Below, piece after piece: positions 1-7,274 of a stretch of 42,733 nt of DNA. Under the pieces are notes generated by a model that saw only the letters and a program-made list of their open reading frames with translations, had not been told where the DNA came from and did no database searches. This DNA comes from a virus, in the IMG/VR virus record IMGVR_UViG_3300042884_000436, positions 1 to 42,733 of that record. One strand, 5' to 3'. The position numbers and the translations under genes are program-made. Positions within the stretch are counted from its first letter, which is position 1. Each line of letters starts with the position of its first letter.

Positions 1-43
1 CGCGAGGCTCCCACCGTCTCCGTTCTTTGACATCGTGAAACGC

Positions 44-81
44 ATGAGACCTACGGGGGCTTCTGTCCCCGCTAGGATCAT
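44..81 (+). ncRNA. possible divergent copy of the second intercistronic RNA element
   Basis: A 7-bp hairpin (54-60 with 65-71, loop TTCT) is flanked by CCTA (50-53) and TAGG (73-76), which can pair with one bulged C, and by an outer ATGA (44-47) / TCAT (78-81) helix. The order of parts (outer 4-bp helix, CC, hairpin, GG, outer strand) is that of the better copies at 435, 778 and 2534, but the conserved CCAGA and CGAGGATG are only partly kept, so membership is uncertain. A second hairpin with outer arms ATCAC / GTGAT follows at about 79-110, just before the ribosome binding site of the first gene. The rest of 1-129 shows no gene that can be supported. Confidence 0.3.
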
Positions 82-129
82 CACACCGCAGTCCGCTGCC
101 GTCTGGTGATTTTAGCAAGGAGAAAGAGC

Positions 130-438
130 ATGAAGAGTTTAGTTATCGGCGTTGGGGTCTCCGAAGGCCCGTACTTCGAAGAACGCTGCGAAGACGGCAT
201 CAACACCCGCTTCAATTACTTCGTGACCACATCAACGTGGGCCGGCGAGTTCGTTCACCCCAAAGCCTTCCGCCACCGCTTCGACGCTCAGCAATTAGCC
301 GCCAAGGTAATGGTCGCTGGTTATGTCGATCTTGATCACTGGGTCGAAGCAGAGCTTCCCGAAAGCTTGGAAGAGCGACTGGGTGAATGCGGCACAGAGT
401 GGCAGCGCGAACAGGATGAGCGCTTGGGTCATTACTGA
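130..438 (+). CDS. small hypothetical phage protein (102 aa)
   Basis: No family is recognised. The ATG at 130 is preceded by AAGGAG at good spacing; an in-frame start at 106 lies inside a hairpin and has no ribosome binding site, so 130 is chosen. The protein is acidic, soluble and has no membrane segment; its C-terminal half is rich in Glu and Arg and looks helical. It is the first of a series of small + strand genes of early type. Its stop codon lies inside the outer helix of the RNA element at 435-485, an arrangement repeated along this operon. The role is unknown; small early phage proteins of this kind often act on host functions, but nothing in the sequence shows which. Confidence 0.75.
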   Translation: MKSLVIGVGVSEGPYFEERCEDGINTRFNYFVTTSTWAGEFVHPKAFRHRFDAQQLAAKVMVAGYVDLDHWVEAELPESLEERLGECGTEWQREQDERLGHY

Positions 439-485
439 TTTCCCCAGACTGTGGGCCTACGGGTCCACAGCGAGGATGAATTCAG
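435..485 (+). ncRNA. intercistronic structured RNA element, family 2, copy 1
   Basis: The outer helix is CTGA (435-438, containing the upstream stop) with TCAG (482-485). CCAGA (444-448) and CGAGGATG (471-478) face each other in an internal loop. They close on a 9-bp hairpin (449-457 / 462-470, one G-U pair) capped by the stable UNCG-type loop TACG. The copy at 2534 has the same layout with a different hairpin sequence, and the copy at 778 changes both hairpin and outer helix, in each case keeping the base pairing. The ribosome binding site of the next gene (AAGGAG, 488-493) follows at once. It is not a hammerhead: the CUGAUGA and stem III parts are absent. The function is unknown; by position it replaces the hammerheads, so transcript processing or translation control is likely. 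Confidence 0.7.
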
Positions 486-500
486 CAAAGGAGAAAGTAC

Positions 501-782
501 ATGAATACCAAATGGACCAAATTTCAACACGAAGCCGCTCAGCACATCACGCTGCAAAACGCCCTGCTTTGGGACGCCAGCGACGAAAAGTTCCTCTGGG
601 TCTCTGACAACATCCTCGATCAGATCGAATGGGACGCCCCCAACAACGGTTTGCGCGACATGTTCATAGACACAGCGGTCAACTGGATCGAGCTTCGCTT
701 CCAGAAACTGATCGAGGACAACATCGAGATCTGGGCCGACCACCATCTGGCTGAGGCGCACGCCGCTGGTTTCAACTACTAA
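501..782 (+). CDS. small hypothetical phage protein (93 aa)
   Basis: No family is recognised. The start at 501 is set by AGGAG 7-12 bases upstream. The protein is acidic, helical in appearance and rich in Trp and aromatic residues (about six Trp in 93 residues), and has no membrane segment or signal peptide. The gene sits between two copies of the family 2 RNA element (435-485 and 778-830), and its stop codon TAA is part of the ACTA strand of the second one. Nothing points to a biochemical function. Confidence 0.75.
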   Translation: MNTKWTKFQHEAAQHITLQNALLWDASDEKFLWVSDNILDQIEWDAPNNGLRDMFIDTAVNWIELRFQKLIEDNIEIWADHHLAEAHAAGFNY

Positions 783-830
783 CACCACCAGACGGCGGGG
801 TTCCTACTCCGCCGCGAGGATGGCGCTAGT
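778..830 (+). ncRNA. intercistronic structured RNA element, family 2, copy 2
   Basis: The most informative copy, because its helices differ in sequence from the others. The outer helix is ACTA (778-781) / TAGT (827-830), in place of CTGA / TCAG. CCAGA (788-792) and CGAGGATG (815-822) are invariant. The 9-bp hairpin (793-801 / 806-814, loop TCCT) shares length but not sequence with the other copies. The upstream stop codon (TAA, 780-782) overlaps the outer helix. The ATG inside CGAGGATG (820) is a false start for the next gene, whose ribosome binding site is at 841-846. Confidence 0.7.
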
Positions 831-852
831 GCCAAATACGAAAGGAATGTTT

Positions 853-1239
853 ATGTCTTTGAATTGGAACGTATCGAACATCAAGAACAGCGAAGCAGTC
901 TGCTTCTTTCACTACAAAGAGGATGGTGAGCCTCAGCGCCGACTGACGCAGTCCACCGAAAACTTGATCTTCCTCACGATGGTCGTTGGCTTGGGCCGGA
1001 TCACCGAAAGCAACTACAAAGAGTTCTACAAGCGGATCGCGCTGTTCGAACGCCTTCGGGGTTGTGTGCGGGTCAAGAAGAGCGACAGCGGCGGGTTCGT
1101 TGATGATCCCTACACGCTCGAGGATATCCGCCAGCACATTGGTCTCATCGTTAACGTGTCAGACGAAAAGCCGGACGCATGGCGTAAACGGATTCTGAAG
1201 AGCTGGGAGCATGATCTGGTGATCGAGCGCCACCACTAA
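853..1239 (+). CDS. small hypothetical phage protein (128 aa)
   Basis: No family is recognised. Three in-frame ATGs are possible (820, 847, 853). AAAGGA at 841-846 is 6 bases from 853 and directly abuts 847, while 820 lies inside the RNA element, so 853 is chosen. The recombination gene at 14480 has the same arrangement of AAAGGA, a false ATG and then the real ATG. The protein is mixed alpha/beta in appearance and basic near the C-terminus, with no membrane segment. The stop codon is immediately followed by a hammerhead ribozyme (1240), so the mature message would end in the ribozyme's stem III hairpin. Confidence 0.75.
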   Translation: MSLNWNVSNIKNSEAVCFFHYKEDGEPQRRLTQSTENLIFLTMVVGLGRITESNYKEFYKRIALFERLRGCVRVKKSDSGGFVDDPYTLEDIRQHIGLIVNVSDEKPDAWRKRILKSWEHDLVIERHH

Positions 1240-1299
1240 GTCGAAACCCCTTCGGGGGTCCGTTCCAGACTGACCGCTGGACGCTGATGAGACAGGTCA
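1240..1299 (+). ncRNA. type II hammerhead ribozyme, copy 1
   Basis: All core parts are present in type II order (stem II open). Stem II is GTC (1240-1242) / GAC (1291-1293). GAAA is at 1243-1246. Stem III is CCCC-TTCG-GGGG (1247-1258). The cleavage triplet is GTC, with the cut expected after C1260. Stem I is 1261-1268 / 1277-1283 with one bulged T and loop ACTGACCG, and CTGATGA is at 1284-1290. The loop segment TGACC (1271-1275) is complementary to GGTCA (1295-1299), giving a pseudoknot that lies just before the next ribosome binding site. Cleavage would leave the upstream message ending on the stem III hairpin with a 2',3'-cyclic phosphate, and the downstream message starting 5'-OH with stem I. 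Confidence 0.92.
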
Positions 1300-1314
1300 T
1301 TTAAGGAGACTGAC

Positions 1315-1716
1315 ATGAGAGAAAATCACCACACGTTCGAACCGCACACTGAGAGCGCAGCCGATCACTTCTGCGACCGCTGCTTCAGCTATCACAGTTG
1401 CTTCGAAGGCTGCGAAGAAGAGGAAGAAGAAGAGATGATCAGCTTTGAGCAGGTCTCTGCCTCTCTCCCCCTTCGCGTCGAGATCGACGGGGAAACCGTC
1501 CACAGGGTCACAGCTTGGAAAGTGCCACGCGATGCCACTGAGGCACAGGTGAAGGAGGCGATGGACTACTGGATCGAAGCTGAATACTGCCAGCATGAGC
1601 ATGATTGCTGTGGCAACTACTACGCTGGAAGGCCGCAGCTTTTGGGTGGCCGCACCTACTGGGACAACGACACAGAGGTCGTTTTCGTTCTCCAGACCGA
1701 CACACTAAACATCTGA
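1315..1716 (+). CDS. Cys/His-rich small phage protein (133 aa)
   Basis: No family is recognised. The start at 1315 is fixed by AAGGAG (1303-1308), just downstream of the hammerhead. The first 35 residues hold a Cys/His cluster (CDRC at about 20-23, HSC at about 27-29, and a further Cys) followed by a run of seven Glu. A second cluster, C-x-H-x-H-x-CC, lies near residues 92-99. The spacing could support zinc binding, but no standard finger is seen. It is followed after 11 bases by the next gene, without an RNA element between them, so the two probably share one message after ribozyme cleavage on both sides. Confidence 0.7.
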   Translation: MRENHHTFEPHTESAADHFCDRCFSYHSCFEGCEEEEEEEMISFEQVSASLPLRVEIDGETVHRVTAWKVPRDATEAQVKEAMDYWIEAEYCQHEHDCCGNYYAGRPQLLGGRTYWDNDTEVVFVLQTDTLNI

Positions 1717-1727
1717 AAGGGTACGAC

Positions 1728-1949
1728 ATGAAGACCATCGAACTCACAGTCACTCGCGTCAGGGAAGACAGCGGCCATGACAGCTTCATCGTCAAGGGAA
1801 AGCTTGGCAGCGCTCACGTCGAGCGACAGGATAATGGCTACTGGATTATCCAACAGCGCACAGGCGGCAACAGCTTCGAATCCCGCTTAAACAGGGATGA
1901 TGCCATCGCGTGGGCGATGAAGCTTTGCTCCACCGTTTTTATCAAATAG
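1728..1949 (+). CDS. small hypothetical phage protein (73 aa)
   Basis: No family is recognised. The ATG at 1728 is preceded by GAAAGGG. The protein appears beta-rich, with alternating hydrophobic and polar residues (motif GYWIIQQRTGGNSF) and a C-terminal helix. Its TAG stop (1947-1949) is itself part of stem II of the hammerhead at 1948, so translation termination and folding of that ribozyme compete for the same bases. Confidence 0.65.
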   Translation: MKTIELTVTRVREDSGHDSFIVKGKLGSAHVERQDNGYWIIQQRTGGNSFESRLNRDDAIAWAMKLCSTVFIK

Positions 1950-2008
1950 TCGAAACCCCTTCGGGGGTCTGGTTGGGACTGACCGCCCACCACTGATGAG
2001 ACTGGTCA
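1948..2008 (+). ncRNA. type II hammerhead ribozyme, copy 2
   Basis: Stem II is AGTC (1948-1951) / GACT (2000-2003). GAAA is at 1952-1955. Stem III is CCCC-TTCG-GGGG (1956-1967). The cleavage triplet is GTC with the cut after C1969. Stem I is 1970-1977 / 1986-1992 (TGGT, bulged T, GGG with CCC, ACCA) around loop ACTGACCG, and CTGATGA is at 1993-1999. The loop TGACC (1980-1984) pairs with GGTCA (2004-2008). Compared with copy 1, stem I is entirely different in sequence but still paired, while loop, bulge and core are identical. This is strong evidence for a selected RNA fold. Confidence 0.92.
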
Positions 2009-2021
2009 AATGGAGATCGAA

Positions 2022-2195
2022 ATGATTGACGCAATAAAAACATTCTTTGCTGGCTTGGCCGTTCTGGTCGTTGCCAGCCTAATCATCGTCCAGCCCCGCT
2101 ACATTGGCTATGGCTGCAAGAACGCAGATGTTCCGCTGTTCGCTAAGTACGAAAGCGACTTCCCCGCATGTGAGCGGATCGAACCAATTTTCTAA
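2022..2195 (+). CDS. small membrane protein (57 aa)
   Basis: There is a single hydrophobic helix near residues 8-27 (IKTFFAGLAVLVVASLIIV), followed by a short polar tail with two Cys. It is probably an inner-membrane protein with the tail on one face. Two ATGs are possible, 2010 and 2022. The purine-rich stretch TGGAGA (2011-2016) can only serve the second, so 2022 is taken. The gene directly follows the second hammerhead, and its function is unknown. Confidence 0.6.
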   Translation: MIDAIKTFFAGLAVLVVASLIIVQPRYIGYGCKNADVPLFAKYESDFPACERIEPIF

Positions 2196-2207
2196 GGGAG
2201 AGTACCA

Positions 2208-2537
2208 ATGACACAAGCATATGATATTGATCTCTTCGCCACCAAGGGCGAGGCAGTAGTAGCAAAACGTCTGGTCCGCATCGCGCTGGATCGCGGGTTC
2301 GTGATCAGCGTCCATGACGGCGAAGAGTGGACAGTCGAGCAAAGCAAAGACCGCAACGAAATCCTCCCCGCCCTCGCAACCACTGGTGAGGACATCATCC
2401 GTCTTTACAAGGACGGCGAACGGGCTGGTTTCTTCCTTCTGGTCTACGGCAACGCTGAGGACGGCAGTGAACTGATCGCGGATCACGCCGACAACGCAGC
2501 ATGTCTCAGCATCTGGTCGGAGGTGTACCCCGACTGA
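2208..2537 (+). CDS. small hypothetical phage protein (109 aa)
   Basis: No family is recognised. The start is preceded by AAGGGAGA. The protein is acidic and looks alpha/beta: a helix at 15-30, then beta strands around VISVHDGEEWTV, then a helix and a strand GFFLLVYG. The alternation resembles small phage proteins with a single compact domain, but no catalytic motif is seen. It follows the membrane protein after 12 bases with no RNA element between, and its stop (TGA) is the 3' part of the CTGA strand of the element at 2534. Confidence 0.7.
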   Translation: MTQAYDIDLFATKGEAVVAKRLVRIALDRGFVISVHDGEEWTVEQSKDRNEILPALATTGEDIIRLYKDGERAGFFLLVYGNAEDGSELIADHADNAACLSIWSEVYPD

Positions 2538-2584
2538 CTTCCCCAGACTGCGGTTCTTCGGAGCCGCAGCGAGGATGAATTCAG
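2534..2584 (+). ncRNA. intercistronic structured RNA element, family 2, copy 3
   Basis: The outer helix is CTGA (2534-2537) / TCAG (2581-2584), with CCAGA at 2543-2547, a 9-bp hairpin 2548-2556 / 2561-2569 with a UUCG loop, and CGAGGATG at 2570-2577. Outside the hairpin it is almost identical to copy 1 (through to the ribosome binding site GCAAAGGAGAAAG), but several hairpin base pairs are exchanged in a compensatory way. The near-identity to a copy 2.1 kb away suggests recent duplication or gene-conversion-like exchange. Confidence 0.7.
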
Positions 2585-2599
2585 CAAAGGAGAAAGTAA

Positions 2600-2782
2600 A
2601 TGACCGAAGAGAAACTAGATGACTACACCGCCGTCATGATCGCTGAGGGCGTCGAAGAGGCGGACTACCACCGCACCGTCGAAGCTTGGCAGTACCTGCA
2701 TGACACTGGCCTTGCCTACCGCCTCCAAGGCTGGTTTGGCCGCACCGCTCAGTCGCTGATCGATCAAGGGATCATTGGCTAG
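2600..2782 (+). CDS. small conserved-type phage protein (60 aa)
   Basis: The C-terminal half (AWQYLHDTGLAYRLQGWFGR, then TAQSLIDQG) matches a pattern I know from small proteins of many unrelated phages: a helix, then a W/Y-x-L-x-G-x-x-GR-x-A-x-x-LI-x-x-G segment. The function of that family is unknown to me. The start at 2600 is preceded by AAAGGAGAAAG. The gene lies between a family 2 element and the third hammerhead, so it would be released as a one-gene message. Confidence 0.7.
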   Translation: MTEEKLDDYTAVMIAEGVEEADYHRTVEAWQYLHDTGLAYRLQGWFGRTAQSLIDQGIIG

Positions 2783-2784
2783 TA

Positions 2785-2842
2785 GTCGAAACGCCTTCGG
2801 GCGTCTGGCGGGGTTGCCTCCCGTCACTGATGAGACAGGCAA
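2785..2842 (+). ncRNA. type II hammerhead ribozyme, copy 3
   Basis: Stem II is GTC (2785-2787) / GAC (2834-2836). GAAA is at 2788-2791. Stem III is CGCC-TTCG-GGCG (2792-2803), a compensatory change from the CCCC/GGGG of the other copies. The cleavage triplet is GTC with the cut after C2805. Stem I is 2806-2812 / 2820-2826 with no bulge and loop GTTGCCT, and CTGATGA is at 2827-2833. The loop segment TTGCCT (2814-2819) is complementary to AGGCAA (2837-2842), so the pseudoknot is kept with wholly different bases from copies 1 and 2. Confidence 0.92.
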
Positions 2843-2854
2843 AGGAGACTGAAA

Positions 2855-2935
2855 ATGACTGAAGGACAACTACACCTAGCAATCCGCTGCAGCATCTACG
2901 CGATCATCGTGATCGCCGCCAACCTTTACGCATAA
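2855..2935 (+). CDS. very small membrane peptide (26 aa)
   Basis: A 26-codon frame begins 4 bases after AAAGGAGACTGA, the normal ribosome binding site that follows each hammerhead. The product begins MTEGQLHLAI and then has a hydrophobic stretch (IYAIIVIAANLYA), enough for one short membrane helix. Size and position make it a plausible membrane micropeptide. Support comes from the ribosome binding site and from tight linkage to the next gene (2 bases after the stop). Confidence 0.5.
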   Translation: MTEGQLHLAIRCSIYAIIVIAANLYA

Positions 2936-2937
2936 CC

Positions 2938-3096
2938 ATGCAGTGGCGCGTGATCCTCATGGCAGATGGCAAGAGCGCTGTCCGCCACGTTAAAGCCAAC
3001 AGTGCTGCACTCGCGAGATGGACAGCGATCAGCGACTACAAACTGGAAACAGGCCTCGACGCAACCGTAGGGCAGATCCTGCGCATCCGTCGATGA
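2938..3096 (+). CDS. small hypothetical protein (52 aa)
   Basis: The frame starts at an ATG two bases after the previous stop, suggesting translational coupling. The product is basic (MQWRVILMADGKSAVRHVKA... ending LRIRR) and could be a small nucleic-acid-binding protein; no family is recognised. It is the last gene before a 63-base gap with an operator-like inverted repeat. Confidence 0.5.
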   Translation: MQWRVILMADGKSAVRHVKANSAALARWTAISDYKLETGLDATVGQILRIRR

Positions 3097-3109
3097 TGTA
3101 TTTATATTA

Positions 3110-3131
3110 TTGACGCATAACACCAGCGTCA
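3110..3131 (+). promoter_or_regulatory. TTGACG box overlapping an inverted repeat
   Basis: TTGACG (3110-3115) is a near-consensus -35 element and overlaps TGACGC (3111-3116) / GCGTCA (3126-3131), a perfect 6-bp inverted repeat with a 9-base spacer. No good -10 box stands at 16-18 bases, so promoter status is weak, but the site could be an operator controlling the ArdC-like gene. A TTGACGCA sequence also occurs in the candidate promoter at 14410. Confidence 0.35.
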
Positions 3132-3159
3132 CTAGGAGCATTTATAGAAAGGATTCGAT

Positions 3160-4029
3160 ATGAAACAGGACGTTTACGAAACTGTCACCGCCAAGGTTCT
3201 CGAGATGATGGAGACGCATGGCGCTAACTGGATCAACCCATTCGCTCGCAAGGGCAAGGCGCTTCAGCCGCACAACATCATCAGCAACAAGACCTATCGC
3301 GGCATCAATCACCTCATGCTGCTCTGGTCGCCTTACGAAACATCTGCTTGGGGAACCTTCAAGCAGTGGAACGAGAAGGGCTGCAAAGTCATTAAGGGTG
3401 AGAAGTCCACACCCATCGTCTTCTGGCAGTTTCTCGAGAAGGAAAACGAGAAGGGCGATAAGGTCACCATCCCGTTCCTTCGCCAGTATCACGTATTCAA
3501 TGTGTCGCAGGTCGAGGGTGATTACGCTGACCGTCTGTTGACCTGTACAGATATTGGTACAGGTGCAGAAGAGATCGCGGTGGCTGAGGATTTTTTCCGC
3601 CAAATCCCTGCGGAGGTACACCACACGTCAACTGGTCGTGCGTACTACAACCCCATGAAAGACTTTATCAGCATGCCAGCCAAGGATGTGTTCGAAGACA
3701 CGCCGACAAGCAGCGCAACTGAGTGCTACTACAGCACCCTGTCGCATGAGCTGACGCACTGGACAGGACACCAATCACGTCTAGATCGTCTCGAGAAATC
3801 ACGCTTCGGCGATGAGAGCTATGCGCGTGAAGAGCTGGTCGCTGAGATCGGTGCTGCACTGTTGTGCGCTCACCTCGAGATCAGCGCGACCCCTCGCCCA
3901 GATCATGCCCAGTACCTCAATGGCTGGATGAAGGCGCTGTCCGACCACAAGAAAGAATTCGTATCAGCAGCGGCGGCTGCATCTAAGGCCGTCGATTTCG
4001 TTATTGAAGCAGCAGGAAAGGAAGCTTAA
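3160..4029 (+). CDS. ArdC-like antirestriction / zincin-like protein (289 aa)
   Basis: This belongs to the ArdC (DUF1738) type: an N-terminal ssDNA-binding-like domain (about 1-125, with the typical NxxTYRGIN segment at 43-50 and WGTFKQW at 64-70) and a C-terminal zincin-like metallopeptidase-like domain. The zinc motif HELTH is at 196-200, and EELVAEIGAALLC (from about 224) would give the third ligand and the helix behind it. Known relatives protect incoming DNA from host restriction, and some enter the cell with the DNA. The length and domain order are normal. The start is preceded by GAAAGGA. It is probably an early anti-defence gene of the left operon. Confidence 0.88.
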   Translation: MKQDVYETVTAKVLEMMETHGANWINPFARKGKALQPHNIISNKTYRGINHLMLLWSPYETSAWGTFKQWNEKGCKVIKGEKSTPIVFWQFLEKENEKGDKVTIPFLRQYHVFNVSQVEGDYADRLLTCTDIGTGAEEIAVAEDFFRQIPAEVHHTSTGRAYYNPMKDFISMPAKDVFEDTPTSSATECYYSTLSHELTHWTGHQSRLDRLEKSRFGDESYAREELVAEIGAALLCAHLEISATPRPDHAQYLNGWMKALSDHKKEFVSAAAAASKAVDFVIEAAGKEA

Positions 4030-4082
4030 TGATTACCAGAATAACACCGCACAAAAGCAAGTTGCGCATCTCATCAGACAGT

Positions 4083-4114
4083 GTCTGGCCCCTACGCAGT
4101 GCAACGGGGCAGAC
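4083..4114 (+). other. hairpin in the gap after the ArdC-like gene
   Basis: GTCT (4083-4086) / AGAC (4111-4114) stacks on GCCCC (4088-4092) / GGGGC (4106-4110) with one bulged G and a 13-base loop. It lies between the ArdC-like stop (4029) and a GTG start at 4155. An open frame from 4029 runs through it, but the base pairing suggests that the segment is a structured spacer rather than coding. It does not match either RNA family further left. Confidence 0.4.
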
Positions 4115-4154
4115 ATTCGCTGAGCGACAGAAGGGCTCGTTGAAAGGAAAGACT

Positions 4155-4424
4155 GTGACACTGAATGACCACGTCATCGCCGCCATAAGATCAATTGAGG
4201 CTGCAAACGACATCAGATCCGCGCATGCACACCTGCCCTACCGCGAGCAGCCACAGGTTCACGATGAACTACTGATCCAATTGCTGGAGGCAATGATTGC
4301 CTTTGACGAAGAGCCAGTCGGCACTCTTGAGGAATTGCAGCGCGAGGATGACACGTTCTTCGGTCGATCCCCTCGAATGACGGACGAAGAGTGGGATTAC
4401 GCAGTCGCCATAGGTGCAGCATGA
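4155..4424 (+). CDS. small hypothetical phage protein (89 aa, GTG start)
   Basis: No family is recognised. Two starts are possible: an ATG at 4029 overlapping the stop of the ArdC-like gene, giving 131 aa, and the GTG at 4155 with GAAAGGAAAG just upstream. I prefer 4155 because the intervening 125 bases form a strong hairpin and translate to an unconvincing basic peptide. The product is acidic and helical, with a C-terminal TDEEWDYAVAIG segment. It overlaps the next gene by ATGA. Confidence 0.6.
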   Translation: MTLNDHVIAAIRSIEAANDIRSAHAHLPYREQPQVHDELLIQLLEAMIAFDEEPVGTLEELQREDDTFFGRSPRMTDEEWDYAVAIGAA

Positions 4425-4555
4425 GCAACTACCTAGAGCTACTCGCCAAGAATGTGCCGCCAATGCCCAAAGAGCATTTACTCAAGCTGAATTCAGAACA
4501 GTTACGGGCTTACGAAAAGTCACGCAACGAGCGATCAAAGGAACAGAGCAAATGA
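4421..4555 (+). CDS. small hypothetical protein (44 aa)
   Basis: The frame starts with ATGA overlapping the previous stop and ends with ATGA overlapping the next start, so it is held in a chain of coupled genes. The product is helical, charged and Leu-rich at first (SNYLELLAKNVPPMPKEHLL) and ends in a basic/acidic tail. The tight overlaps on both sides are the main evidence that it is translated. Confidence 0.55.
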   Translation: MSNYLELLAKNVPPMPKEHLLKLNSEQLRAYEKSRNERSKEQSK

Positions 4556-4806
4556 CCGATAAAGAAATAACACACGCCGCACGTCAAATCTGCGCGGCTC
4601 AATGCGAAAATCAGGATAACAGCGATGGGCAGTTATATCGCTCCGGCGGTTGGGATCACACGATCTGGATGCGCCTCGTTGAGCAAGGCATCCGGCGTGG
4701 GATTGAAACTGAACGCACTGCAACGGCAGATTGGTTTTTGAAACATAACCAGCGCCAGTTGGCAGACAGCGTCCGTCGTGGCGACCACATGAAGGAAAGC
4801 AAATGA
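4552..4806 (+). CDS. small hypothetical protein (84 aa)
   Basis: No family is recognised. The start at 4552 overlaps the preceding stop (ATGA), with AAAGGA about 15 bases upstream; longer in-frame versions would run through the previous gene. The product looks helical, with two Cys and several Trp, and has a basic C-terminal third. The stop overlaps the next start again (ATGA at 4803). Confidence 0.6.
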   Translation: MTDKEITHAARQICAAQCENQDNSDGQLYRSGGWDHTIWMRLVEQGIRRGIETERTATADWFLKHNQRQLADSVRRGDHMKESK

Positions 4807-4982
4807 CTGAAAGCTACCGACTACTACAAGACGGACAACCAGTTGCTTGGGCTGAAGGACGCAACGCCGCTGCAGAGATCATGCATTATGTTGATGTCTA
4901 TGGGCAGGACGGTCCTGTAGAAGCCCAGCAAAAGGTTAATGGGCGCTGGGTGTCGCTGTTTAAACTTGGCGACCTACAGTGA
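4803..4982 (+). CDS. small hypothetical protein (59 aa)
   Basis: It starts at the ATGA overlap with AGGAAAG upstream. The product has the look of a compact beta-beta-alpha domain, reading as strand, turn, strand, helix and strand (YRLLQDGQPVAWAEGR, helix AAAEIMHYVDVYG, then VNGRWVSLFKL). No family is assigned. The last codons overlap the small GTG frame that follows. Confidence 0.6.
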   Translation: MTESYRLLQDGQPVAWAEGRNAAAEIMHYVDVYGQDGPVEAQQKVNGRWVSLFKLGDLQ

Positions 4983-5056
4983 CCCTGCGCCAGTTCCTCT
5001 TTGACAACTTTGGCTGGGACATTTACGAGTGGTCACCAGACGAAATTAGATTTTAG
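4979..5056 (+). CDS. possible micropeptide (25 aa, GTG start)
   Basis: GTG at 4979 overlaps the previous TGA stop and opens a 25-codon frame rich in aromatic residues (TLRQFLFDNFGWDIYEWSP). The overlap continues the ATGA/GTGA chain of the three genes before it, which is the only support. It could equally be a chance frame. Confidence 0.35.
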   Translation: MTLRQFLFDNFGWDIYEWSPDEIRF

Positions 5057-5108
5057 AACTACCCCACCCCAGCTCCTTTCAATCTCGACAACTACGGCGG
5101 GATAGACG

Positions 5109-5178
5109 GCTAGACAGCGGCAGTATCAAACACCTTTGGGTGATGGGGGTCATAGACAGTAGGGTGTGAATGTCTAGC
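5109..5178 (+). promoter_or_regulatory. structured leader of the ribonucleotide reductase gene
   Basis: The 280-base gap before the reductase has no convincing gene. GCTAGACA (5109-5116) pairs with TGTCTAGC (5171-5178), enclosing a small CACC-TTTG-GGTG hairpin. A second TAGACA (5153-5158) can pair with the same TGTCTA, so two mutually exclusive folds are possible. Nearer the gene, ACTGATGC-TTAC-GCATTAGT forms an 8-bp hairpin around 5257-5276. I see no B12 box or other cobalamin-riboswitch hallmark, so the ligand, if any, is unknown. Confidence 0.35.
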
Positions 5179-5336
5179 AACGTAGCAATTTTCGATCAGC
5201 GGCAAACATAAAAAGAACAGCCGCAACTCTCTCTAAACACACAACTATTTTTTTCGACTGATGCTTACGCATTAGTTGAAGCAACACTGCTTTGGCCGTA
5301 TGGCTGGAGGTTCCACCTATGTAATGGAGAATTACA

Positions 5337-7274
5337 ATGCAACTACCGACTGACTACCAATCCTATATTCACAAGTCCCGTTACGCACGCTTCATCGACG
5401 AGAAGGGCCGTCGTGAACACTGGGACGAAACCGTCTCGAGATACTTTGATTTCTTCGAGGAAGAGCTCGAGACCCACAACGGACACAAGGTGTCTGCTGG
5501 TCTGCGCAGTGAGCTCGAGGACGCTGTCCTAAGCCTCGCCGTCATGCCATCCATGCGTGCGCTGATGACCGCAGGAGAGGCTCTGAAGCGCGAGAGCGTT
5601 GCTGGCTACAACTGTAGCTACCTACCCATAGATCGGCCCAAGGCGTTCGCTGAGGCTCTGTACATTCTTATGTGCGGCACAGGCGTTGGCTTCTCTGTCG
5701 AGCGTCAAGAGATCAGCAAGCTGCCTGTTGTGCCTGAGCACTTTGACCGCACTGCATTCGACATTATTGTGGGCGACAGTAAACTTGGTTGGGCAGAGGC
5801 GTACCACACACTACTGACCTGCTTATTCGCTGGCACTATTCCTAATGTGGACTACAGTCAGATCCGTCCTGCAGGTGAGCGTCTTCGCGTCTTCGGTGGC
5901 CGTGCGTCTGGCCCAGATCCTTTGCGCGACTTGTTCGAATTCACGATCCGCACCATGCGTAATGCTGCTGGCCGTAAGCTGAACAGTCTCGAGGTACACG
6001 AGATCGTCTGCAAGATCGGTGAGATTGTGGTGGTTGGTGGTGTCCGCCGCTCCGCTGAGATCAGCCTTTCGAATCTGTCCGACCAGCGCATGCGTGACGC
6101 CAAGTCTGGCAACTGGTGGATCGAGAAGCCATACCTCGCCTTGGCAAACAACTCAGCCTCTTACACTGAGAAGCCAGAGGTCGGTCAGTTCATGGACGAG
6201 TGGTCTGCACTGTACCGCTCGCGGTCTGGTGAGCGTGGCATTTTTAATCGTGAGGGAGCCATCAATAAGATCTTGCGCCTTGGTCGTCGTGACCACCGCT
6301 ACGACTTCGGCACTAACCCATGCGGTGAGATCGTGCTTCGCCCTCGCGGATTCTGCAACTTGACTGAGGCAGTGGTGCGTGAGAATGATAGCCTTGGAGA
6401 TCTGAAAGAAAAGGTGCGCCTTGCGTCGATCCTTGGCACATGGCAGTCCACCCTCACCCGCTTCAACTTCATCGAGCCAGAGTGGCGGCGCAACGCAGAG
6501 GAAGAGCGCCTGCTTGGCGTGTCCCTCACCGGCATCTATGACAATGCACTGATGCGTGGTGACAACGGTCTTGATCGTCTTGGCACGGCGCTTGAGAAGC
6601 TGAAGGCGTCCGCCATCAAGGCAAACCGTCTCGAGGCGCACGACATTGGCATCAACCCATCTGTTGCCGTCACTACGGTTAAACCGTCCGGCACTGTGTC
6701 TCAGTTGGTGAACAGCCCAAGCGGAATCCACCAAGGGCATGCCCAGTACTACATCCGGCGCGTCACTGGTGACAACAAAGATCCAATCACCGCCTTCATG
6801 GGTGATGCTGGCATTCCTAACGAGCCACACGCATCCAAGCCACAAGGCATGACGGTCTTTGCGTTTCCTGTGAAGCTTGGTGATGGTACTACCACTCGCG
6901 ATGACGTGACTGCATTGCAGCATCTCGAGCTAGTCCGCACCTACAACACGCATTGGTCAGAGCATGCAGTGTCCTGCACCATCAGCGTGAAGGAACCAGA
7001 GTGGCCTAGCGTTGGTGGCTGGGTGTTCGATCACTTCGATGACATCTGTGGCCTGTCGTTCCTGCCTCACTTCGAGGGCGACAGCTCATACACGCAGATG
7101 CCTTACGAGACGATCACCAAGGCTGAGTACGAGCAACGGCTCGCTGCTATGCCAAAGGAGATTGATTGGTCTGGCCTCGCCTTCTATGAGAAGGGGATCG
7201 ACACAGTGACTGGCACACGCGAACTTGCATGCGTTGGTAACACCTGCGAGATCGTTGACGCACAGTCTTTATAA
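5337..7274 (+). CDS. nrdJ: class II (adenosylcobalamin-dependent) ribonucleotide reductase
   Basis: It reduces ribonucleotides to deoxyribonucleotides with a B12-generated thiyl radical, supplying DNA precursors. The radical Cys and its partner Glu are in NPCGEI (C329, E331). The redox pair is C93 (YNCSY) and C340 (FCNL), and the C-terminal shuttle pair is C632 and C637 (CVGNTC). The length of 645 aa and the ending fit the monomeric Lactobacillus-type triphosphate reductase, as carried by several marine phages. The start is preceded by ATGGAG. It needs no dedicated activase or small subunit, which suits a phage with an aerobic or variable-oxygen host that can supply cobalamin. Confidence 0.93.
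   Translation: MQLPTDYQSYIHKSRYARFIDEKGRREHWDETVSRYFDFFEEELETHNGHKVSAGLRSELEDAVLSLAVMPSMRALMTAGEALKRESVAGYNCSYLPIDRPKAFAEALYILMCGTGVGFSVERQEISKLPVVPEHFDRTAFDIIVGDSKLGWAEAYHTLLTCLFAGTIPNVDYSQIRPAGERLRVFGGRASGPDPLRDLFEFTIRTMRNAAGRKLNSLEVHEIVCKIGEIVVVGGVRRSAEISLSNLSDQRMRDAKSGNWWIEKPYLALANNSASYTEKPEVGQFMDEWSALYRSRSGERGIFNREGAINKILRLGRRDHRYDFGTNPCGEIVLRPRGFCNLTEAVVRENDSLGDLKEKVRLASILGTWQSTLTRFNFIEPEWRRNAEEERLLGVSLTGIYDNALMRGDNGLDRLGTALEKLKASAIKANRLEAHDIGINPSVAVTTVKPSGTVSQLVNSPSGIHQGHAQYYIRRVTGDNKDPITAFMGDAGIPNEPHASKPQGMTVFAFPVKLGDGTTTRDDVTALQHLELVRTYNTHWSEHAVSCTISVKEPEWPSVGGWVFDHFDDICGLSFLPHFEGDSSYTQMPYETITKAEYEQRLAAMPKEIDWSGLAFYEKGIDTVTGTRELACVGNTCEIVDAQSL

Follow-up and report, generated by a model that had tools for sequence, protein, structure and literature searches.

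Type II hammerhead ribozymes and a second structured RNA between small early genes of a phage operon

The window, that is, the whole stretch of DNA that was analyzed, is an entire virus record of 42.7 kb. Near its start lies an operon of small early genes, and between these genes are found three complete type II hammerhead ribozymes (HHRs) and three copies of a two-helix RNA that we call M2. The features, with RBS standing for ribosome-binding site, are as follows.

130-438, + strand: gene, 5' of M2 copy 1
435-485, + strand: M2 copy 1, with the stop codon of gene 130-438 on its 5' side and the RBS of gene 501-782 on its 3' side; the stop codon UGA lies inside helix P1
501-782, + strand: gene between M2 copies 1 and 2
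779-829, + strand: M2 copy 2, with the stop codon of gene 501-782 on its 5' side and the RBS of gene 853-1239 on its 3' side; P1 variant CUAA/CUAG
853-1239, + strand: gene of 128 aa (MSLNW...), 5' of HHR 1; no Pfam or PHROG match
1240-1299, + strand: HHR 1; stem II 1240-1242/1291-1293, GAAA 1243-1246, stem III 1246-1250/1255-1259, predicted cut 1260/1261, stem I 1261-1268/1277-1283, CUGAUGA 1284-1290, possible pseudoknot of UGACC 1271-1275 with GGUCA 1295-1299
1315-1716, + strand: gene of 133 aa, 3' of HHR 1; weak match to phrog_20892
1728-1949, + strand: gene of 73 aa; its UAG shares a base with stem II of HHR 2
1949-2008, + strand: HHR 2; stem II 1949-1951/2000-2002, predicted cut 1969/1970, stem I 1970-1977/1986-1992, CUGAUGA 1993-1999, possible pseudoknot of UGACC 1980-1984 with GGUCA 2004-2008
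2022-2195, + strand: gene of 57 aa, 3' of HHR 2
2208-2537, + strand: gene, 5' of M2 copy 3
2534-2584, + strand: M2 copy 3, with the stop codon of gene 2208-2537 on its 5' side and the RBS of gene 2600-2782 on its 3' side
2600-2782, + strand: gene of 60 aa (DUF7417), 5' of HHR 3
2785-2842, + strand: HHR 3; stem II 2785-2787/2834-2836, predicted cut 2805/2806, stem I 2806-2813/2819-2826, CUGAUGA 2827-2833, possible pseudoknot of UUGCC 2814-2818 with GGCAA 2838-2842, the GGCAA end running into the RBS AAAGGAG
2855-2935, + strand: 26-codon ORF (MTEGQLHLAI...), directly 3' of HHR 3; related text also occurs in L247 and L248, and the ORF may be a true microprotein gene
3160-4029, + strand: ArdC-type antirestriction protein, a little 3' of the ribozyme array

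Every core base (GAAA, GUC and CUGAUGA) is exact in all three HHRs; each has the strands that define RF02276, the Rfam type II family (CUGANGA, GAAA, and H17 after U16.1), and its topology, in which stems I and III are closed by loops and stem II is open. Stem III, 5-6 bp long with a UUCG cap, reads ACCCC/GGGGU or ACGCC/GGCGU, stem I has 7-8 bp, and the open stem II has 3 bp (GUC/GAC). A preliminary description of this DNA had recognized three type II hammerheads in the operon, with these cores and stems, and had placed the 5' sides of the downstream pieces at 1261, 1970 and 2806; the full cores and the Rfam matches bear out the former, and the cut positions predicted here are the same. Overlooked in all three elements was a possible 5-bp pseudoknot between loop I and the 3' tail just 3' of stem II, and overlooked too was the second structured RNA in the other gaps, one copy of which (2534-2584) lies even inside the interval that was described. 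The claim that each HHR overlaps a stop codon is exact for HHR 2, in which G1949 is both the last base of UAG and the first base of stem II, whereas HHR 1 adjoins its UAA (1237-1239) without overlap and HHR 3 begins 2 nt past UAG (2780-2782), a second in-frame UAG (2783-2785) overlapping it.

The core pattern is matched exactly three times in the window, always on the + strand, where 0.02 matches are expected; three were reached in none of 100 shuffles. When the type II model was searched, as the preliminary description had proposed, all three elements were matched: HHR 3, at 44.1 bits, exceeds the curated gathering score of 37 bits (Rfam 15), and HHR 1 (30.1 bits, E 0.004 over 5.4 kb) and HHR 2 (29.2 bits, E 0.007) fall below it. 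In the related phages L250 and L255 every HHR exceeds the threshold, at 37.6-58.1 bits, so that the low scores of HHRs 1 and 2 probably reflect peripheral preferences of the model and not a broken core. In pseudoknot-free minimum-energy folds computed with flanks, HHR 2 gives stems I and III, and HHRs 1 and 3 appear without the hammerhead fold.

Relatives were collected via the ribonucleotide reductase of the window (14 loci, 78-99% identity), and those whose loci extend to the small-gene region carry 2-5 HHRs per operon. Among 18 distinct HHR copies of this phage group, stems II and III are paired in 18 of 18 at every sampled position, stem III showing 2-3 pair types at three positions; the pseudoknot also varies compatibly (UGACC/GGUCA, UGGCC/GGCCA and UUGCC/GGCAA), in a best-segment search that may favor a stem I segment, as for window HHR 2. 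A wider scan with the core pattern matched at least 120 viral stretches. Half of 159 unique HHRs have at least four contiguous Watson-Crick pairs between loop I and the tail, against 14% in controls in which loops and tails were mispaired between contigs; by this simple pairing test, a clear 4-bp pseudoknot is absent from about half of phage type II HHRs. The type II identity of the window elements between small genes is thus supported by the core, the Rfam matches, the covariation of stems and pseudoknot in the 18 copies, and the placement between stop codon and RBS. A variant hammerhead with a CUGACGA core, and with stem II GCC/GGC in place of GUC/GAC, lies at L255:5760-5830 (+).

The order of elements in M2 is P1 (7 bp), the core CCCCRGA/CGAGGAUG (7 + 8 nt; short form CCRGA/CGAGGAUG) with the P2 hairpin (about 7-11 bp), and then the RBS. 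Across 20 distinct sequences, all 14 pairs covary, with changes on both sides, and 91.4% of cells are paired, compared with 63.4% in shuffled and 34-49% in slid alignments. CC-GA/CGAGGAUG is invariant in the 20 aligned copies; one further copy, L247:4110, departs from it. Copies 1, 2 and 3 of the window score 70.1, 62.8 and 68 bits with the M2 model, for which they served as training sequences. The stop codon usually falls within the 5' strand of P1, and in several copies (L309, L330, L367 and L270:10179) the Shine-Dalgarno (SD) sequence stands directly behind P1. Independent validation came from core-only scans outside this phage group, the matches of which split into two classes: the 12 with a P2 of at least 6 bp have P1 in 12 of 12 and a stop codon at P1 in 12 of 12, whereas those without P2 have P1 in 16 of 52 and a stop codon at P1 in 5 of 52 (Fisher 9e-6 and 2e-9, respectively).

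M2 is a well-supported structured RNA family that is absent from Rfam 15: a search of window positions 1-5400 at E<=1 gave no match except the HHRs, and L288 gave chance-level matches only. It is not a hammerhead, having two helices and a different core in place of a three-helix junction with CUGANGA and GAAA strands. Twister-sister-like minimal ribozymes, with loops of 5 and 6 nt and a CA cleavage site (PMC11620745), share with M2 the layout of two helices around a conserved internal loop; identity with these or with any other Rfam family is set aside by the different core and the lack of a model match. A kink-turn was set aside by inspection. A search of the open-access literature, with subscription papers outside its reach, found no report of M2, which is weak evidence of novelty. 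The leader was also considered as the site of an M2 relative (72-115), which was rejected: the only match there, at 18.7 bits, is on the opposite strand, and the hairpin is a different one. The leader itself (1-129, +; also in L244, L247 and L250) is conserved ahead of the first small gene and has a long stem adjoining the RBS; its hairpins, judged by eye, change compatibly between relatives (CCUA/UAGG to CCCA/UGGG).

Beyond this phage group, M2 occurs in about ten unrelated phage contigs, namely L270 (three copies), L281, L288 (two), L301, L330, L335, L363, L364, L367 and L368, and in a Sphingomonas laterariae contig (L276/L309). L309 and all ten of these phage contigs have M2 without hammerheads in the DNA examined. 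Conversely, the HHR contigs gathered by the first scan, most of them unrelated and 955 kb in total, yielded no M2, which speaks against M2 as a general companion of HHRs. A blastn search of 50,697 phage records with two copies gave no match among named phages, and in the bacterial family of S. laterariae M2 is rare, with two matches in 301 genomes, the second of which is weak and unconvincing by eye. Outside the window, a first, looser pattern had yielded nothing but chance matches. An apparent M2 remnant is seen at L250:5129-5151, where the 5' strand CUGAUUUCCCC leads straight into the RBS as if the remainder had been deleted.

Of eight related phages, five have M2 and the other three (L250, L255 and L261) an HHR ahead of the MSLNW gene. 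That the same downstream gene takes either element would fit M2 being a processing signal for a host enzyme of the RNase III type and not a ribozyme, with HHR and M2 as two routes to the same cut; so would the intergenic position, the presence of several copies per operon, and the 7-bp P1 and 7-11 bp P2, which flank an internal loop and are of compatible length. RNase III, however, usually imposes a weaker sequence constraint than a near-invariant core such as that of the 20 aligned M2 copies, and we regard this reading as possible, if on balance doubtful. The highly conserved core, together with a P1 of which one strand holds the stop codon and the other adjoins the SD sequence, would also suit a protein-bound translational operator or a coupling device, through which a terminating ribosome or a bound protein would control the next gene; the replacement of M2 by an HHR before the same gene in three phages speaks against it, and we entertain this reading only tentatively. 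Placement and exchange with an HHR before the same gene are also the context that suggests a new class of small self-cleaving ribozyme, sharing the cutting of intercistronic mRNA with the hammerheads of the operon, an idea that we consider rather unlikely. M2 occupies the same type of site as the HHRs and can replace one before the same gene, which strongly recommends it for assays of ribozyme, RNase or regulatory activity.

The placement of the HHRs was quantified in 141 copies from 94 other viral contigs. Counting stop codons that end ORFs of at least 50 codons, we found that 71% of the copies have one at -6 to +3 nt relative to where stem II starts, against 5% at shifted positions and 0% on the opposite strand; the scan pattern fixes stem II as GUC/GAC, and these statistics describe that large subset. 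The commonest offset is -2 (40 of 141), where stem II opens with the G of UAG, and an SD sequence with a start codon follows within 40 nt in 70% of HHRs, compared with 12% at shifted positions. The stop-HHR-RBS geometry is therefore general among the sampled type II HHRs. No report of this geometry was found in the open-access literature, a search outside of which subscription papers fall and which is weak evidence of novelty.

We consider it likely that the window HHRs are real type II ribozymes, most likely self-cleaving, that cut the early message into gene-length pieces, and that M2 performs a comparable intercistronic job. Hammerhead cleavage leaves a 2',3'-cyclic phosphate on the upstream piece and a 5'-OH on the downstream piece. 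During or soon after synthesis of the early polycistronic phage message, each HHR would cleave itself in the gap from one small gene's stop codon to the RBS of its neighbor. This would give an upstream piece whose 3' end is the stem III hairpin, placed right behind the stop codon and bearing a 2',3'-cyclic phosphate, and a downstream piece that starts with a 5'-OH and has the stem I hairpin as the 5' end of the next message. Each gene would then probably have an mRNA of its own length, with folded ends and independent of its neighbors in stability and translation, as suits a region in which the small genes have been reshuffled from one relative to another. M2, in the same stop-to-RBS site, would probably have a comparable processing or insulating role in the other gaps. 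In infected cells the ribozymes may cleave only partly or only under some conditions, since a ribosome that terminates at the adjoining stop codon would sit on the 5' part of the element.

The covering of stem II by the terminating ribosome, which would keep the ribozyme from folding, could itself be the purpose of the arrangement, with untranslated messages being cut and translated ones staying polycistronic. In favor of such translation-linked control, the overlap or abutment of the stop codon, with its mode at -2, is far more precise than simple intergenic placement needs, and in M2, too, the stop codon usually lies in the 5' strand of P1; selection for small gaps in compact phage genomes could, however, yield the same geometry, and we judge this explanation to be unlikely. 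For the preferred reading, in which the HHRs cut between genes, the proximity of the stop codon in 71% of sampled phage type II copies and the RBS that follows allow a direct test within a small genetic unit.

Across the eight related phages compared, the element 3' of a gene tracks the family of that gene, and no family has both types: an HHR follows the MSLNW family in 8 of 8 cases and DUF7417 in 7 of 7, and M2 follows the 109-aa family in 7 of 7 and F02, a single-linkage cluster that may merge more than one family, in 5 of 5. The gene 3' of the element varies. Free site-by-site swapping of M2 and HHR is accordingly only partly right, the type being tied to the upstream gene and the downstream gene seeing either. 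Such linkage is what would be expected if the elements were mainly repeats for recombination or cassette joining, each ORF traveling with the element behind it and cleavage being incidental. Among unrelated HHR contigs, however, nine pairs share the downstream gene only and six the upstream gene only, so that there is no upstream bias and a general cassette of an ORF plus a 3' ribozyme is not upheld; moreover, conservation falls on core bases and pairing, not just on DNA identity. We find it improbable that joining of cassettes is the main role, and, because the broad HHR set lacks upstream bias, the linkage looks like recent inheritance within this phage group and not a law. That the HHRs are degenerate, inactive fossils or chance look-alikes, as the two scores below the gathering threshold might suggest, is barely credible in view of their intact cores, the covariation in relatives and the low number expected by chance.

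The early transcript of phage T7 carries intercistronic RNase III sites at which the polycistronic RNA is cut into smaller mRNAs. The elements described here likewise are structured intercistronic sites in an early polycistronic phage RNA, with cutting predicted; they differ in that HHRs need no protein and that M2, for which no enzyme is known, has a conserved core of its own. In synthetic insulators of the RiboJ type, a ribozyme before the RBS trims the upstream sequence and leaves a 5' hairpin. The position ahead of the RBS is the same here, as are the upstream trimming and 5' hairpin that cleavage is predicted to produce, but the window ribozymes are natural, have the type II topology and are placed behind the stop codons of an operon.

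The window hammerheads are new additions to an established class, and their arrangement, too, has been seen before. Type II HHRs with the pseudoknot, and their clustering around single prophage genes, were published in 2011 (Perreault et al. 2011, PMC3088659), including arrays in phages and prophages; the preliminary description had stated that hammerheads as a class are known in phages and bacteria. In the 2011 work, in vitro cleavage was seen for RNAs that share this architecture and pseudoknot, and the processing of messages into gene-length mRNAs was already proposed. The further claim that three HHRs in one operon are unusual is not supported, given that the same paper reports clustered type II HHRs and an active triple array and that our viral scan contains, among the matches listed, arrays of up to 6-7 within one stretch. 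A 2017 review restated the clustering of HHRs around small ORFs and called the role of prokaryotic HHRs open (PMC6155905). With the bacterial and prophage type II HHRs (RF02276, PMC3088659), those of the window share the core, the open stem II, the closed stems I and III, the pseudoknot and the clustering at small phage genes; relative to the published arrays, what is added here is the quantified, exact stop-HHR-RBS spacing, the interleaved, uncatalogued M2 RNA and the short UUCG-capped stem III.

The closest published counterpart is the triple HHR array flanking ardA in Agrobacterium tumefaciens, which is active in vitro and in vivo (PMC3088659). It, too, has three HHRs in one short phage-related operon with an antirestriction gene, which in the window is ArdC-like and comes after the array; the other genes differ, ArdC is not directly flanked, and the text consulted describes no M2 at the Agrobacterium array. 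An antirestriction gene thus accompanies both triple arrays, as ArdC 3' of the window array and as the flanked ardA in Agrobacterium. DNA 88-89% identical to HHR 3 over 55-59 nt is also found in the Streptomyces phages phiELB20 (JX262376, 48055-48113) and R4 (JX182370, 48219-48273), in both of which a hypothetical protein is annotated across it.
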